The notes beneath the pieces are model-generated. The model saw nothing but the letters and a program-made list of their open reading frames with translations. It searched no databases and was not told where the DNA came from. Source: Magnetococcales bacterium (lineage in GTDB: Bacteria > Pseudomonadota > Magnetococcia > Magnetococcales > JADFYX01). From it: DNA of 42,539 bases. Position 1 is the stretch's first letter; the number at the start of each line of letters is the position of its first letter. The position numbers and the translations under genes were made by a program. Shown here one piece after another: positions 28,590 to 42,539 of the stretch. Where the stretch lies: positions 1 through 42,539 of the forward strand of contig JADFZU010000023.1 in NCBI GenBank assembly GCA_015232365.1, read 5' to 3'.

Positions 28590-30488
28590 TCAGGCTCCAG
28601 GCTCTTCCTGGGCATCAGCCGCCAGCCGAAGTGCATCAGCTAGAGATATAATCCCTTTTACAGCAAAGTTTAGAGCAGAAATATGCAGAGGGACAAACCC
28701 CTTCATCCGGTTTGCCACAATTACAAACCGGGCAAGGTCCTCCTTCCGCAGGGCATCGGCCAGCTCTTGATCCATCTCTAACAGCTCCACCACGGCAATT
28801 CGGCCCCGGTAACCACTGTTATTACAGTGGGAGCAACCACTGCTTTCTTGAAAATTAAGAGGAGTATCAATCTGACCAAGATATGAGAACACCAACTCCT
28901 TCTCCACTATGGTTACGGCTTTTGGTGTGCTGCAGTAATGGCAGATTCGCCTAACCAGACGCTGGGCCAAGACACAACGTAACGCAGAGGCGACAACATA
29001 GCCCTCTATACCCATCTCTATAAGGCGGATTGTTGTACTCACCGCACTGATTGTATGAAGGCTGGAAAAAACCAGATGACCAGTCAAAGCCGCCCGAATG
29101 GCAATACGTGACACCTCCTCGTCACGCATCTCGCCGACCAAGAGAATATCCGGGTCTTGACGGAGAACAGTACGCAAAATTTCAGCATAAGTCAGGCCGA
29201 TTTTTTTGTGTACCTGTACCTGGTTAATACGGGGAAGGCGATACTCAACCGGCTCCTCAACAGTTATAATTTTACTTCTGGCCTGGTTGAGAACATTCAA
29301 CGCTCCATAGATTGTTGTCGTCTTACCGCTTCCGGTTGGACCGGTTACCAAAATCAAACCTTGAGGCCTGCCGATCTGCTTTTTAAACCTGGCCAACAGA
29401 TCCGGCTCCATGCCCACCATCTCCAGTTTGAGACTATCACCAGATTGATCCAAAAGACGCAAAACCACTGACTCTCCATCTTGAATCGGCAAAGTCGACA
29501 GCCGCACATCAACCCGCCGGTTGTTGACGGTAAGTTGAAACCGCCCATCTTGGGGCAGACGTTTTTTTGCAATCTCAATCCCAGCCATCAATTTCAGTTT
29601 TGAAACCAGAGCCGGAGCGATACTTTTCTCCTTGATAATCTGCTCGGTCAGCTCCCCATCCACCCTGAGCCGAACCCTTAGAACCTCCGCATCAGGTTCA
29701 ATATGGATGTCCGATGCGTTGAGGCGGATGGCATCGGCAAATAGAGAGTCGATAATCCTAACTACCGGAGCATCAGAAGATGCCTCATCTGACTCTACAG
29801 AGTCGCTGCTTGCACTATATTCAACTACCTCCTCCTCCAAACGGGCTGCCTGTACGCCAATTTCATCAATCTTCCGGTATGAAAGGTCAAAAATCCGTAA
29901 GATAGAACGTTCAGAAACCAGGGCAGTTTTTAGAGGTGTTTTGAGAAACTTTACCAACTGGTCATAAGCAAAAAGGTCGGTAGGGTCAGTCATGCCTACC
30001 AAAATACCATCACTGCTTGATTTTAGAATAATCGCCCGAAACCGTCGGGCTGTTGCCTCCGGCAGACGCTGCACTGTAGATGGATCAAGAGGATACTTGA
30101 CAAGATCGATAAACTCTAGCTCTAGCTGTTTGGCAAGAAATTGTAAAAAATGGTTCTCTGAAAGAAATCCCAGTCGCTCCAGGCTCTGCCCCAGCCTGGA
30201 GCCGCTCTGTTTCTGTTCTACCAACCCAGCAGTCAACTGGGTCGGTGTTATAATTCCAGCCTCAACCAGCAGTTCACCTATTCTGCTCTGCCGCTGCTGC
30301 CTTTGTAAAAACTCTTCAAGCTGTTTTTTGCTCAAAAAGCCTAGGCGAATCAACCCTTCGCCTAAACGAACCCCGGTCTCATTTTTATAAAGCAGACCTT
30401 TATCGAGCTGATCAGAGGTGATGACCCGATTATTAACCAACATATCGCCTATCAAGGAGTTGGTCTGGTTTTTTCGGGTTTTAACCAT
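28590..30488 (-). CDS. mshE: MshE/GspE-type pilus assembly ATPase with two MshEN modules
   Basis: A 632-residue AAA-like secretion ATPase. The first 125 residues have four MshEN-type units (pattern RLG-xx-L-xxx-G-x6-L-xxx-L-xx-Q): Gly14 to Lys35 (degenerate, the second Gly is Arg21), Arg41 to Gln64, Arg69 to Gln92 and Arg98 to Gln121. In Vibrio MshE one pair of such units binds cyclic di-GMP. A second N-domain follows, then the Asp box (ASDIHIEP, 258 to 265), Walker A (GPTGSGKT, 383 to 390), Walker B (ILVGEMRDEEV), a His box and the four-cysteine zinc site (CHYC...CSHC). It polymerises pilin from the cytosolic face. The gene lies in the pilus operon between the mshN-like and mshG-like genes. 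Confidence 0.93.
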   Translation of the reverse strand: MVKTRKNQTNSLIGDMLVNNRVITSDQLDKGLLYKNETGVRLGEGLIRLGFLSKKQLEEFLQRQQRQSRIGELLVEAGIITPTQLTAGLVEQKQSGSRLGQSLERLGFLSENHFLQFLAKQLELEFIDLVKYPLDPSTVQRLPEATARRFRAIILKSSSDGILVGMTDPTDLFAYDQLVKFLKTPLKTALVSERSILRIFDLSYRKIDEIGVQAARLEEEVVEYSASSDSVESDEASSDAPVVRIIDSLFADAIRLNASDIHIEPDAEVLRVRLRVDGELTEQIIKEKSIAPALVSKLKLMAGIEIAKKRLPQDGRFQLTVNNRRVDVRLSTLPIQDGESVVLRLLDQSGDSLKLEMVGMEPDLLARFKKQIGRPQGLILVTGPTGSGKTTTIYGALNVLNQARSKIITVEEPVEYRLPRINQVQVHKKIGLTYAEILRTVLRQDPDILLVGEMRDEEVSRIAIRAALTGHLVFSSLHTISAVSTTIRLIEMGIEGYVVASALRCVLAQRLVRRICHYCSTPKAVTIVEKELVFSYLGQIDTPLNFQESSGCSHCNNSGYRGRIAVVELLEMDQELADALRKEDLARFVIVANRMKGFVPLHISALNFAVKGIISLADALRLAADAQEEPGA

Positions 30489-37917: not shown

Positions 37918-39636
37918 TCAGCTAGCAACTTCCGGGGCAAAACAGACCCGGTTACGCCCCTGCTCTTTAGCTTTGTAAAGGGCATTATCAGCCATTTTCA
38001 AGAGCTGTTCAGGGTTTTCAGAGCCAGAGTTGGGATAGATAGCAACTCCAATGCTGATATGAACCTGTAGACCATCAACACGCATATCAGAAATTTTCTC
38101 ACGGAGCCGTTCAGCAACAGTAGCAACGCCATCTATGCCGGTACTAGGCAAAACTGCAACAAACTCTTCACCACCATAACGGCAGGGATGGTCTATATCC
38201 CGAAAATGACCTTTCATCACCTTGCCGATAGCCTCTAAAACCCGGTCGCCCTGATCGTGGCCGTAGGTATCATTAAACTTTTTAAAATGGTCCACATCAA
38301 AGAGCAGCAGCCCCAGTACCAAATTATAACGTTCGGCCCTTTTGTACTCCTCCTTCAAGATTGTATCAAAATATCGCCGGTTGAAAAGATTGGTAAGTGC
38401 GTCAGTAGTAGATAGATACCGCAACTCCTTTTCCAAGGCCTTTTCCTGAGTTACATCTCTAATCAGTGCAGCGGAACCGACAACCTCCTTTTCATTGGAC
38501 AAGATTGTTGTCGCCTGTATTTGCAACATTTTATTATTAAAATAGATAATGTCAGGACTATCACTGATGTCATATTTCAACATTGCACCAAAAAGGTCTT
38601 CATCATCTATAATATTTCTAAAGCCATTCTGCCTTAACTCATCCTCACTCTTGCCCAACAGCTCTCTAGCGGCAGGGTTAACCAGAACGATACATTCATT
38701 ACTGTCAGTAACAACAATACCATCTTTGGCTCCAAGAATGATTGTGGTCAGTTTATCTTTCTCACTTTGCAAACCAGAGTAGGTTTTTGCCAGCTCTTCA
38801 CTCATCTGATTAAAGCAGCTTGCCATAACCATGAACTCACAACACCCCTCTACAGCAGCCTCTTGACGAATATGGCCGTCAATCATGGCTAGCATAGATC
38901 TATTAAGATTCTCTATAGGCTCGACAACATAGCGACGAATTTTCAAGAAAACAGTGGCTAAGACAACAATCAGAACGACAAGTTGGATTAAAACAATCCG
39001 AATTCGCATAGTCCTGATATCTTCATGGGCTTGCTGCATAGAGGTGGTAACCTCAAAAATTCCCCGGATTAAGTGGTCGTCACCATGACAAGTTGTGCAC
39101 TGTTCAGAGTTTTTGATTGGGTAGAATACCGTCATAGTGGCACTCTCCCCTTCCAAAGATCTAATAGTCTGACTTAAACCACTGGCAACAACCTTCTTTA
39201 CCAAGGAAAGCTCTAGTGGTGTGGACAGCTCTCCAGCAATCTCATCCCGTAGAGGAAACTCCTCTCCACCCATGAGCTGGTTGACCTTATTAATAGTTTT
39301 ATTATCTTTGAAGGACTCTGTTCCGTCACTTCTAAGGATGCGTATCTGCCTGAGGTCATTAACCTTTTTGATGTCTTCAATATAGCTCTCGGCAATATCA
39401 GCAGAGCCACTCTGCATTATTGTTTGCAGACCGCTGCCTAAAGTATGGGTAAGAAGGTTAAGTGAACGCTCATGCTGGGAGAGAATCATCTTCTCTTGGA
39501 AGTGAACAAAAAAGAGGGCAATACCAAAGGTGCCGATTAAAAAAGTCGAGCCAATCAACGCCAACATACGGTTGCCAACTCTATCGAGAAAATTACTGTT
39601 GAGAATTATCTCTGACTCTTTTAAATGCTTTAGCAT
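37918..39636 (-). CDS. Membrane diguanylate cyclase with periplasmic heme-c sensor
   Basis: A 572-residue c-di-GMP-producing enzyme. Layout: TM1 (about 24 to 46), a periplasmic sensor (47 to about 208) with the c-heme motif CTTCH (Cys180, Cys183, His184), TM2 (about 212 to 232), a HAMP-like linker, a PAS domain (about 290 to 400) and a GGDEF domain. The active site is GGEEF (488 to 492) and the inhibitory site RDID (479 to 482) is intact, so product feedback is expected. The covalent heme suggests sensing of redox state or a small gas, as in other single-heme periplasmic sensors. The ATG at 39636 is preceded by GGTGGG; TTG 39648 and GTG 39645 are alternatives. It lies 83 bases after mlaC on the same strand. 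Confidence 0.92.
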   Translation of the reverse strand: MLKHLKESEIILNSNFLDRVGNRMLALIGSTFLIGTFGIALFFVHFQEKMILSQHERSLNLLTHTLGSGLQTIMQSGSADIAESYIEDIKKVNDLRQIRILRSDGTESFKDNKTINKVNQLMGGEEFPLRDEIAGELSTPLELSLVKKVVASGLSQTIRSLEGESATMTVFYPIKNSEQCTTCHGDDHLIRGIFEVTTSMQQAHEDIRTMRIRIVLIQLVVLIVVLATVFLKIRRYVVEPIENLNRSMLAMIDGHIRQEAAVEGCCEFMVMASCFNQMSEELAKTYSGLQSEKDKLTTIILGAKDGIVVTDSNECIVLVNPAARELLGKSEDELRQNGFRNIIDDEDLFGAMLKYDISDSPDIIYFNNKMLQIQATTILSNEKEVVGSAALIRDVTQEKALEKELRYLSTTDALTNLFNRRYFDTILKEEYKRAERYNLVLGLLLFDVDHFKKFNDTYGHDQGDRVLEAIGKVMKGHFRDIDHPCRYGGEEFVAVLPSTGIDGVATVAERLREKISDMRVDGLQVHISIGVAIYPNSGSENPEQLLKMADNALYKAKEQGRNRVCFAPEVAS

Positions 39637-39719
39637 CTGTCCCACCAAATCAGATTAAATATAGAAAACGAAAGCTTTAAATAGCCAGCAACTATTAAAT
39701 ATCTGTGGGTAAGTTAAAC

Positions 39720-40346
39720 TCAGTCGAGGGATGAGATCTTTTCCTCTAGTTTTGAAAGCATACCTTCAATATCAGGATTTCTTTTCTGCAAAAGTTGGCG
39801 AAACTGTGCCCTGTAGTTGCTAATAACACTAAACCCCTCGCCGGAAATATTATACACCATCCACTTGTCACCAGATTTTTTCATCATATAGGCAACATCA
39901 TACTTCTGCCCTTTAGAGGTTATAATACTCTCTATCCTAACAATATTTTTTGATTTTTGAATCTCATTGGTAAAGACTACAGAGCCACCCTTCAGCCGCT
40001 CAATCAGTCCAAGAAACTTTAGCTCTAGCAGTTGCTTGAACAGGGTTACAAACCGCTCTTGTTGAGCAGGTGAAAACTTAGACCATTTCCGCCCCACCGA
40101 TTTTTTGGACATTTCAACAAAGTCAAAATTGCCATAAAGAGCTTCACGCAGCTTATCTCTACGAAGATCTGCATTCTCAGGCAGAGACAACTCTTCATTT
40201 TCTATTATTGAAAAAGCTAACTGTACCGACTTTTCCAATTGAGCTATGCGAGAGGTTTCAGCCAAAACCCGGTCTGCATCAATTGATAGCCCAACAAAAA
40301 ATACGGGAAACAGCAATACAGATAGAAAATAGTTAAACCGACGCAT
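39720..40346 (-). CDS. mlaC: MlaC periplasmic phospholipid carrier
   Basis: A 208-residue secreted protein of the MlaC/Ttg2D family. The signal peptide (FNYFLSVLLFPVFFVGLSI, cleavage near VLAETS) is followed by an all-family fold: GNFDFVEMSKKSVGRKWSKFSPAQQERFVTLFKQLLE, then DVAYMMKKSGDKWMVYNISGEGFSVISNYRAQF. MlaC shuttles phospholipids between the outer-membrane complex and MlaFEDB. AGGA lies 8 bases before the ATG. It begins 26 bases after mlaD. The next gene downstream is the diguanylate cyclase, not mlaB. Confidence 0.93.
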   Translation of the reverse strand: MRRFNYFLSVLLFPVFFVGLSIDADRVLAETSRIAQLEKSVQLAFSIIENEELSLPENADLRRDKLREALYGNFDFVEMSKKSVGRKWSKFSPAQQERFVTLFKQLLELKFLGLIERLKGGSVVFTNEIQKSKNIVRIESIITSKGQKYDVAYMMKKSGDKWMVYNISGEGFSVISNYRAQFRQLLQKRNPDIEGMLSKLEEKISSLD

Positions 40347-40372: not shown

Positions 40373-40822
40373 CTACTGAACACTGCCATTAATAAATTGA
40401 CTAATCAGCTCCTCAAAATTGATAGCTGATTCAGTTTCAACAATAAAGTCGTCATTTTTTAAAATGATTTCAGATCCGCCAGGACTAATAGAAATATACC
40501 TCTCACCAATCAACCCTTTGGTACGGATAGAGGCGATGGCATCCTCTTGAACAGGAACATCAGTATAGATTTTCAGACGAACCAGAGCCTGAAACTCTTT
40601 TTTATCTAATGAGATCGAATCAACCCGGCCAATCTGTACACCGGCAATCTCAACAGGAGCTCCTGGTTTAAGACCGTCAATAGAGGAGAAGGTGGCATAT
40701 AGAGGAACGTTATTACTACCGATCATCTCCATCCTGGCCAGCCTGACAGACAGCCACCCCATAGCCAGCAAGCCCCCTAATACAAATAGTCCCACAGAGA
40801 TTTCTAACTTGACGCTTCTCAT
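40373..40822 (-). CDS. mlaD: MlaD MCE-domain lipid transport protein
   Basis: A 149-residue inner-membrane-anchored MCE protein. One N-terminal helix (EISVGLFVLGGLLAMGWLSV) is followed by the MCE domain, LYATFSSIDGLKPGAPVEIAGVQIGRV, then IRTKGLIGERYISISPGG. Six copies form a ring above MlaE that receives lipid. GAGAGAG lies before the ATG. It lies 28 bases after mlaF. Length is near the usual for MlaD. Confidence 0.95.
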   Translation of the reverse strand: MRSVKLEISVGLFVLGGLLAMGWLSVRLARMEMIGSNNVPLYATFSSIDGLKPGAPVEIAGVQIGRVDSISLDKKEFQALVRLKIYTDVPVQEDAIASIRTKGLIGERYISISPGGSEIILKNDDFIVETESAINFEELISQFINGSVQ

Positions 40823-40850: not shown

Positions 40851-41870
40851 CTAAACAAACTTGATAGGTCCATCCAACTCACCTTTAATAAACTGCCTGA
40901 TCACCGGGTCTTTGGAATTTTTAATATCCATAGACGGCCCTGAAGCCCTCACTTTGCCCTGATGAAGCACTATCACATGGTGACACCAATCAAAAATAGC
41001 CGGAACAGCATGGCTGATTATCACCATGGTGTAACGGGTACGCATGAAAGTATCACAAATTAGATAGTGAATCGCCTTCTCGATAATAGGATCAAGCCCT
41101 GCTGTTGGTTCATCCAACAAAATAATATCAGGACGGATAACCAATGCTCTGGCTAAAGCCACCCGTTTCTGCATACCCCCACTCAACTCATCAGGAAATT
41201 TTTTCTCAATACCCGACAAGTTCACATTTCTCAAAGCCTTTGTCACCCTGCTGTGGATCTCTGCTGCATCCAGGTTGGTGGTCTCTTTGAGTGGAAAAGC
41301 GACATTATCATATACGTTAAGAGAGTCAAACAGTGCTCCACCTTGAAATAATAGACTAAACCGCTTGCGAATGGTATTAAGCTGTTTGTCGGATATTTCT
41401 GCCAGATTATTATCATCAACCCACACCTCACCCTTATCCGGCTTAACCAAGCCAACCATGTGTTTCAGGGTTACGCTTTTGCCACCACCGCTAATACCGA
41501 TTACAGCGGTAATTTTATGGGCGGGAATTTCCATCTCCAGGCCATCAAGAACCAGGCGGCCGTCAAAGGATTTCTCAACCCCCTTAAAACGAATTTTCGC
41601 CGGAACGTTGGACTCAAGCTGGTAGGCAACACGCTCCATTGTGAACTGCTGGAAAAGACAGTTTAGAAGCTCCGACTGGGTAATAAGACCTTTTTCTACC
41701 AGGAGATGACCGATAAGATATGCCTCTTGGTCATTTCTCTTACACTCATCAAGAGTCTCGTCAAGCTGGGCCTGGGTAATACAGCCATTCTCAAGAAGTC
41801 TCTGCCCAACCGGAAGTGGAGGCGGCTTCCCTGATAACTGCTCTTCATCTATTTTTTTTGTTTTAGCCAC
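40851..41870 (-). CDS. mlaF: MlaF ATPase fused to an N-terminal MshEN-like module
   Basis: MlaF is the ATPase of the lipid transporter MlaFEDB; the usual protein is about 270 residues, but this one has 339. The extra N-terminus holds two 22-residue units of MshEN pattern: Gly22, Leu25, Gly29, Leu36, Leu40 (to Cys43) and Gly54, Leu57, Gly61, Leu68, Leu72, Gln75. The Arg before the Gly in the known nucleotide-binding motif is Pro20 or Leu52 here. The ATPase part (from about residue 92) has IGISGGGKS (Walker A), LSGGMQKR (signature) and IILLDEPTAGLDP (Walker B). The start is a GTG at 41870, 11 bases after mlaE. The ATPase call is secure; binding of a nucleotide by the N-terminus is not shown. 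Confidence 0.93.
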   Translation of the reverse strand: MAKTKKIDEEQLSGKPPPLPVGQRLLENGCITQAQLDETLDECKRNDQEAYLIGHLLVEKGLITQSELLNCLFQQFTMERVAYQLESNVPAKIRFKGVEKSFDGRLVLDGLEMEIPAHKITAVIGISGGGKSVTLKHMVGLVKPDKGEVWVDDNNLAEISDKQLNTIRKRFSLLFQGGALFDSLNVYDNVAFPLKETTNLDAAEIHSRVTKALRNVNLSGIEKKFPDELSGGMQKRVALARALVIRPDIILLDEPTAGLDPIIEKAIHYLICDTFMRTRYTMVIISHAVPAIFDWCHHVIVLHQGKVRASGPSMDIKNSKDPVIRQFIKGELDGPIKFV

Positions 41871-41881
41871 GAATACTCAAC

Positions 41882-42539
41882 CTACAACATAATTGAGGTG
41901 ATAAAATAGTCACCAACTAAAACCAGAACTGAACTTAGAACCACTGCAGAGGTAGTGGCTTGACTTACCCCCTCTGCTCCACGGGTAGTATAGTAACCTT
42001 TAAAAGTACATACCCAGGTGATAATAAGACCAAAACTGACCGCCTTAATCAACCCCGTATATATATCATGCATCTCAACAGCAGTCTCAATTCCACCAAA
42101 GTAGGTTCCTGCACTCAAACCAAGTAACTGCACAGAGACAAGATAACCACCCATAATTCCTATAACATCAAAAATTACAGTTAAAAGCGGCAGAACAATC
42201 AGCCCAGCCTGAATTCTGGGAGAGATAAGAAATTTCAGAGGCCGGATACCCATAACCTCTAAAGCATCAATCTGCTCACGAATCCGCATGATTCCAAGCT
42301 CTGCTGTTAAAGCTGAGCCTGCTCTGCCTGTTACCATTAATCCTGCCAACACCGGCCCCAACTCCCGAATCATTGAGAGGGCAACCGCCTGACCAAGCAG
42401 GGCTTCCGAGCCAAATTTCGATAGAGTATAATAGCCTTGCAGTGCTAGCACCATTCCAGCAAACACTGCTGTTAAAACAATAACGAAAAGCGAACGAATA
42501 CCGATAAAGTGTATTTGCCTGAGGATATTCTGCCCACGA
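41882..42539 (-). CDS. mlaE: MlaE permease of the lipid transporter (5' end missing)
   Basis: The reading frame runs off the right edge of the window, so the N-terminus is missing by perhaps 40 residues. The visible part shows the MlaE features: a membrane-adjacent RQIHFIGIRSL segment, MVLALQGYYTLSKFG, ELGPVLAGLMVTGRAGSALTAELG, MRIREQIDALEVMGIRPL and five hydrophobic helices. It forms the dimeric inner-membrane core that moves phospholipids with MlaD and MlaF. A GTG at 42466 could be mistaken for a start, but the family sequence clearly continues upstream of it. Confidence 0.95.
   Translation of the reverse strand, partial: RGQNILRQIHFIGIRSLFVIVLTAVFAGMVLALQGYYTLSKFGSEALLGQAVALSMIRELGPVLAGLMVTGRAGSALTAELGIMRIREQIDALEVMGIRPLKFLISPRIQAGLIVLPLLTVIFDVIGIMGGYLVSVQLLGLSAGTYFGGIETAVEMHDIYTGLIKAVSFGLIITWVCTFKGYYTTRGAEGVSQATTSAVVLSSVLVLVGDYFITSIML

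Follow-up and report, generated by a model that had tools for sequence, protein, structure and literature searches.

The closest described relative of the domain reported here is the N-terminal domain of the pilus ATPase MshE from Vibrio cholerae (PDB 5htl). Its N-subdomain is built of four helices and carries two motifs of 24 residues in tandem. One guanine of c-di-GMP sits in each motif, with the Arg at position 1 stacking, the main-chain amides at Gly3 and at residue 4 binding the Hoogsteen edge, Leu2, Leu17 and Leu21 forming hydrophobic clusters, and Gln24 holding ribose and phosphate (PMC5013675). MshE shows no binding of c-di-AMP and only weak binding of cGAMP, and the contact from the MshEN C-terminal subdomain was reported to be dispensable (PMC5013675). 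A construct of the isolated N-subdomain binds c-di-GMP (PMC12002112).

The GSPII domains of the traffic ATPase PilF from Thermus thermophilus are of the same type and include a C-terminal subdomain. GSPII-B has Lys and Leu at position 1 of its motifs, the Leu in motif II as in the MlaF described here, and binds c-di-GMP at 6 nM; therefore, the consensus was extended by its authors to (R/K/L)LG. GSPII-C has Pro at position 1 of one motif, yet binds at about 500 nM. A single Gln-to-Glu change in GSPII-B costs 77- to 158-fold and leaves 0.5-1 uM binding, while the double change abolishes it (PMC11731258). GSPII-A is a degenerate member which keeps the fold and has lost the ligand, and a role as a 'landing pad' has been proposed for it (PMC12002112).

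On the transporter side, the reference is MlaF of the Escherichia coli MlaFEDB complex, an ABC ATPase with the LSGGM signature of the Mla type, encoded with MlaE, MlaD and MlaC. It has no N-terminal module, and both the STAS protein MlaB and the 25-residue C-terminal handshake tail of MlaF are needed in E. coli (PMC7367683). How Mla-type transporters are controlled post-translationally is a question that has been raised for MlaB (PMC7367683). Small ligand- or partner-sensing domains added to the nucleotide-binding subunit are found in ABC importers such as MetN (PMC7367683); there they sit at the C-terminus and have other folds. The word ABC is absent from the main text of a survey of MshEN output domains (PMC5013675).

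The mla operon and the N-terminal module of MlaF

The window, meaning the whole stretch of 42,539 nucleotides from a Magnetococcales bacterium that was analysed, has an mla operon on its minus strand. Its nearest genomic match, at 84% identity, is Magnetococcales isolate ER1bin7. The permease gene mlaE (41882..42538) is cut by the window end and matches Pfam MlaE at 1.6e-83. It is accompanied by mlaF (40851..41870), by mlaD for the MCE protein (40373..40822; TIGR04430 at 159 bits, above the 135-bit cut-off, and Pfam MlaD at 6e-23), and by mlaC for the periplasmic phospholipid carrier (39720..40346; Pfam MlaC at 1.8e-39). The order mlaE-mlaF-mlaD-mlaC is kept in every sampled relative with a long enough contig. 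The mlaF ORF has a GTG start and encodes a 339-residue protein with an ABC_tran match of 6.1e-31. Its best NCBIfam match is the MlaF model at 218 bits, which is below the 441-bit cut-off of that model. As an ABC ATPase encoded together with MlaE, MlaD and MlaC, the protein is an MlaF. The nucleotide-binding domain covers residues 92-339 (40854..41597, minus strand) and ends in DGPIKFV; the 25-residue tail of the E. coli protein is missing. Walker A (GISGGGKS), the LSGGM signature, Walker B and the His switch are all intact, and an alignment of MlaF homologues shows little or no variation in the Walker A, Walker B and LSGGM columns.

A diguanylate cyclase gene (37918..39648) starts 71 bases past mlaC on the same strand. 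Its product has a haem-type CTTCH sensor followed by HAMP, PAS and GGDEF domains, with a GGEEF active site and an RxxD inhibitory site. Since this cyclase is intact, c-di-GMP signalling is present in the window organism. A cyclase gene with 66% identity lies near mlaC in another genome of the same genus. A conserved linkage between mla and the cyclase was considered and rejected, as it is confined to this genus and nothing comparable is kept elsewhere.

The N-terminus of MlaF contains two motifs in tandem. Motif I (41742..41813, minus strand) is formed by residues 20-43, PVGQRLLENGCITQAQLDETLDEC, and aligns with motif I of MshE. It is separated by a linker of 8 residues (41718..41741, minus strand) from motif II (41646..41717, minus strand), which is formed by residues 52-75, LIGHLLVEKGLITQSELLNCLFQQ. 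The linker in MshE has 5 residues (PMC5013675), and the range in the MlaF family is 6-12. A sequence-only reading of the window had described units at 20-43 and 52-75 with the spacing G-x2-L-x3-G-x6-L-x3-L-x2-Q. The positions are correct and the spacing up to the last Leu is present in both units, but the closing Gln is found only in unit II (Gln75), whereas unit I closes with Cys43. The tandem pattern did not appear when residues 1-92 were shuffled 200,000 times, nor in 50,000 shuffles made with the full-length sequence. Motif II is followed by an extension of helix 4 (residues 76-85; 41616..41645, minus strand) in which Glu79 is invariant and Tyr83 is nearly invariant. Two cysteines are conserved in 62-68% of the family; Cys30 lies in the region of the first turn of motif I, and Cys71 belongs to helix 4.

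The same reading had proposed that this N-terminus is MshEN-like, and sequence, profile and structure-model matches all point to MshEN-type domains. Residues 1-92 alone match PilF (E=6e-5) and MshE (E=5e-4) in the PDB, and a profile built from 34 family members matches PilF at 5e-22, MshE at 6e-13 and PilB at 3e-12. All 14 significant matches of the profile are MshEN/GSPII domains; the first unrelated match has an E of 0.17. The AlphaFold model of the module (pLDDT 80) has four helices at residues 21-27, 33-45, 50-59 and 65-85, in line with the four-helix bundle of the MshEN N-subdomain. A Foldseek search with the module model only, since the ABC half of the full-length model is of low confidence (pLDDT 67, 30 sequences), returned N-domains of MshE, PilB and PilF as its top 13 matches, with probabilities of 0.96-1.00 and query TM-scores of 0.52-0.56. 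The E-values of these matches are only about 0.07-0.5 because the domain is short. The model fits the MshE and PilF crystal structures to about 2.0-2.4 A over about 57 residues, and MshE is the best structural match.

Neither Pfam MshEN (PF05157) nor NCBIfam gives an MshEN match in the window MlaF. The alpha/beta C-terminal subdomain MshEN_C is absent, and the ABC domain begins at about residue 92. In the pilus-type ATPase of the window (28590-30488, minus strand), PF05157 matches 29874-30122, downstream of the profile-matched motif pair at 30213-30377. Therefore, PF05157 seems to describe mainly the C-terminal subdomain, and the absence of that subdomain is probably the reason why Pfam misses the MlaF module. 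A weak DUF4388 match on MlaF (E=0.019) fails the cut-off and was set aside. Residues 18-85 are thus almost certainly a four-helix module of the MshEN_N type (GSPII N-subdomain), consisting of the N-subdomain only. This arrangement differs from both MshE and PilF, where the domain belongs to a pilus or traffic ATPase; in MlaF the N-subdomain stands alone before an ABC ATPase domain.

Two other MshEN-like arrangements were observed in passing. The N-terminus of the window pilus/secretion-type ATPase has two overlapping MshEN_N profile matches and apparently four successive motif-like units before the Pfam MshEN region. Another locus (L189) has a 491-residue frame on the minus strand which, by eye, seems to combine MshEN-like motifs, a cNMP-binding-like region and a PilZ-like C-terminus.

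Distribution and history of the module

An MlaF of this type is present in 39 of the 48 Magnetococcales genomes and the gene is complete in 38. The module is found in 35 of these 38 genomes and is truncated in the other three (G040, G046 and G017). The truncated proteins fall in two separate lineages of the order, both of which retain the transporter. Five MlaF sequences (L058, L059, L112, L114 and L119) are without motif I and most of motif II but retain the end of helix 4, including the Glu and the Tyr. An exception in the order is family f13, whose three genomes give no match to MlaE; one of these is a single-contig genome of 4.7 Mb.

The search for other MlaF proteins with this extension shows that it is common in Magnetococcales and absent from every other lineage sampled, where the sampling was not exhaustive and most sequences come from metagenome bins. 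In a random draw of the phylum, the alignment with MlaF from outside the order begins only at about residue 74-94. The MlaF proteins of Nitrospirota, Geobacteraceae, Binatota, Methylomirabilota and of the other groups checked begin at the ABC domain or close to it. Among the matches listed for 249 Pseudomonadota genomes, frames of 330-420 residues carry the module only in MlaF of Magnetococcales. In 148 genomes around Geobacter, the frames examined at E<=1e-12 are pilus ATPases and other proteins, with no ABC fusion. Candidate MlaF fusions outside the order were rejected, as the short frames read among the matches listed for both sets are pilus ATPases or other proteins. Two MlaF sequences from bins labelled Deltaproteobacteria (L113 and L118) have another short addition at the N-terminus, CEPCALxPYTGG, in which two cysteines are conserved.

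When a tree was built from the ABC halves, every MlaF of Magnetococcales grouped in a single clade (support 100/99). Three label changes are needed for the module on this tree, which fits one gain followed by two truncations. The module is ancient in the order; MlaF probably gained it a single time, in the common ancestor of the Magnetococcales sampled, and it was later lost twice.

Contact residues and candidate roles of the module

The c-di-GMP contact positions were compared in 37 module-bearing MlaF sequences. Gly3 is present in all 37 sequences in motif I and in 36 of 37 in motif II, and positions 17 and 21 are almost always Leu, Val or Ile. At position 1, motif II has Leu in 35/37 and motif I has Pro or Ser in 28/37. 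In the pilus-type domains of Magnetococcales, which were compared in motif I only, this position is Arg or Lys in 27/29. Gln24 is found in 76% of the sequences in motif I and in 65% in motif II. Both Gln occur together in 16/37, and which one is lost varies by lineage. The motif positions which are neither contact nor core have a mean conservation of 43-45%. By this comparison, the contact set of the family is conserved above background, though not strictly.

Scored against the extended receptor consensus of (R/K/L)hG..L..L..Q type (R/K/L at 1, Gly at 3, Leu-type at 17 and 21, Gln at 24), the window MlaF fits at 6/6 contact positions in motif II and at 4/6 in motif I. The full consensus fails at Pro20 and Cys43, and this protein is among the weaker members of the family. 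One sequence (L026) fits all 12 contact positions and is the sole member to do so. The earlier argument that binding could be lost because the Arg is replaced by Pro20 and Leu52 is right about the residues and weak as a case against binding, since GSPII-B binds with Lys/Leu and GSPII-C with Pro; these two changes are not disqualifying. The replacement of the conserved Gln by Cys43 is more worrying. Because this Gln contacts the phosphate in motif I, any binding by the window MlaF should be weaker.

The best explanation, given a probability of roughly 0.4, is that a module gained once is c-di-GMP-responsive in the members with intact sites and regulates Mla through helix 4. The estimates for the competing readings are not strictly exclusive of each other. 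The lengthened fourth helix joins the module to the ABC domain; the end of this helix may be needed by the ABC domain or its partners, with the bundle before it serving in regulation or docking. Members with intact sites would bind one c-di-GMP between their two motifs. A ligand-driven shift of helices 1-4 could then pass through helix 4 to the nucleotide-binding domain, with an effect on assembly or on ATPase activity. For the window MlaF, where motif II is intact and motif I is without its Gln, binding would be weaker, if it occurs. The case for this ligand rests on the retained contact Gly, Leu and Gln, on the compatibility of Leu or Pro at position 1 with binding, on the dispensable C-terminal contact, on the ability of an isolated N-subdomain to bind and on the intact diguanylate cyclase gene of the window. 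Against it count the incomplete Gln pairs, the Pro or Ser at motif I position 1, the longer linker, the two lineages that lost most of the module and kept the transporter, and the lack of conservation of the neighbouring cyclase outside the genus. If the module has a ligand, c-di-GMP is the likeliest one. Its binding in much of the family is possible, at somewhat less than even odds, and in the window MlaF it is doubtful. Control of Mla by c-di-GMP is therefore plausible for part of the family and weaker for the window protein.

A comparably possible explanation, also short of an even chance, is that the MshEN fold was kept while nucleotide binding was lost, leaving a rigid surface for docking or dimerisation, through which MlaF is stabilised or a partner is held. 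The best-kept positions are the scaffold Gly and Leu, and the polar contacts drift between lineages. Glu79 and Tyr83 lie outside the binding motifs and outlast the loss of the four-helix part. PilF GSPII-A, with its proposed 'landing pad' role, provides a precedent (PMC12002112). However, Gly3 hardly varies in either motif, although in MshE its main role is with the ligand, and the first-position Leu of motif II and the two Gln sites are better conserved than the other motif positions.

The sequence-only reading had also suggested that the module acts in place of MlaB. In this explanation, which is unlikely, the module would substitute structurally for MlaB or for the handshake tail at the C-terminus of E. 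coli MlaF. No STAS gene lies beside the checked Magnetococcales mla operons, and the full-length MlaE homologues, at about 256 residues, have no room for an added STAS domain. The MlaF tail is also missing, and in E. coli both the tail and MlaB are needed (PMC7367683). However, the MlaF proteins of Geobacteraceae, Binatota and others, which have no module, are also without the MlaB-contacting tail; therefore, tail loss does not track module gain and gives no specific support to a replacement. Stand-alone STAS proteins are present elsewhere in the Magnetococcales genomes, and the truncated MlaF proteins lost the module and gained no tail.

Binding of another ligand, such as a different cyclic dinucleotide, a lipid or a metabolite, is quite improbable. 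Departures from the MshEN consensus or from the pilus-type MshEN domains of Magnetococcales are seen at position 1 of motif I (Pro/Ser), at position 4 and at the conserved Cys30 and Cys71, which would suit a changed specificity; but MshE itself discriminates against c-di-AMP and cGAMP (PMC5013675). To our knowledge, no MshEN domain has another physiological ligand. A chance or convergent resemblance between helical repeats, to which the missing PF05157 match and the modest Foldseek E-values might point, is negligible and for practical purposes refuted by the profile E-values (6e-13 to 5e-22, to MshEN domains only), the Foldseek probabilities and the shuffles, with PF05157 describing the very subdomain that MlaF is without.

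Meaning for Mla transport in Magnetococcales

The module most likely acts in the cytoplasm as a regulatory domain of the Mla phospholipid transporter, and a regulatory role of some kind is probable. The parts are known; the combination of MshEN_N with a lipid-transporter ABC ATPase, fixed in a single order, is apparently undescribed, as no description of it was found in the open-access literature judged by titles, abstracts and term counts. The earlier statement that no c-di-GMP-responsive Mla transporter has been described agrees with the open-access titles and abstracts, where none was found. With MlaF, an ABC transporter joins the list of output domains linked to MshEN.

The module also gives a direct handle on the post-translational regulation of Mla-type transporters. 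It is one small soluble domain with about 37 natural variants that show a graded loss of binding residues, and two lineages are without it. That the Mla system of Magnetococcales is gated by c-di-GMP, with the messenger binding directly to the ATPase subunit, is a tentative proposal that may well prove wrong. If true, outer-membrane lipid homeostasis would be tied to the switch between motile and sessile life, and MlaF would be the first ABC ATPase under the control of a fused MshEN domain.
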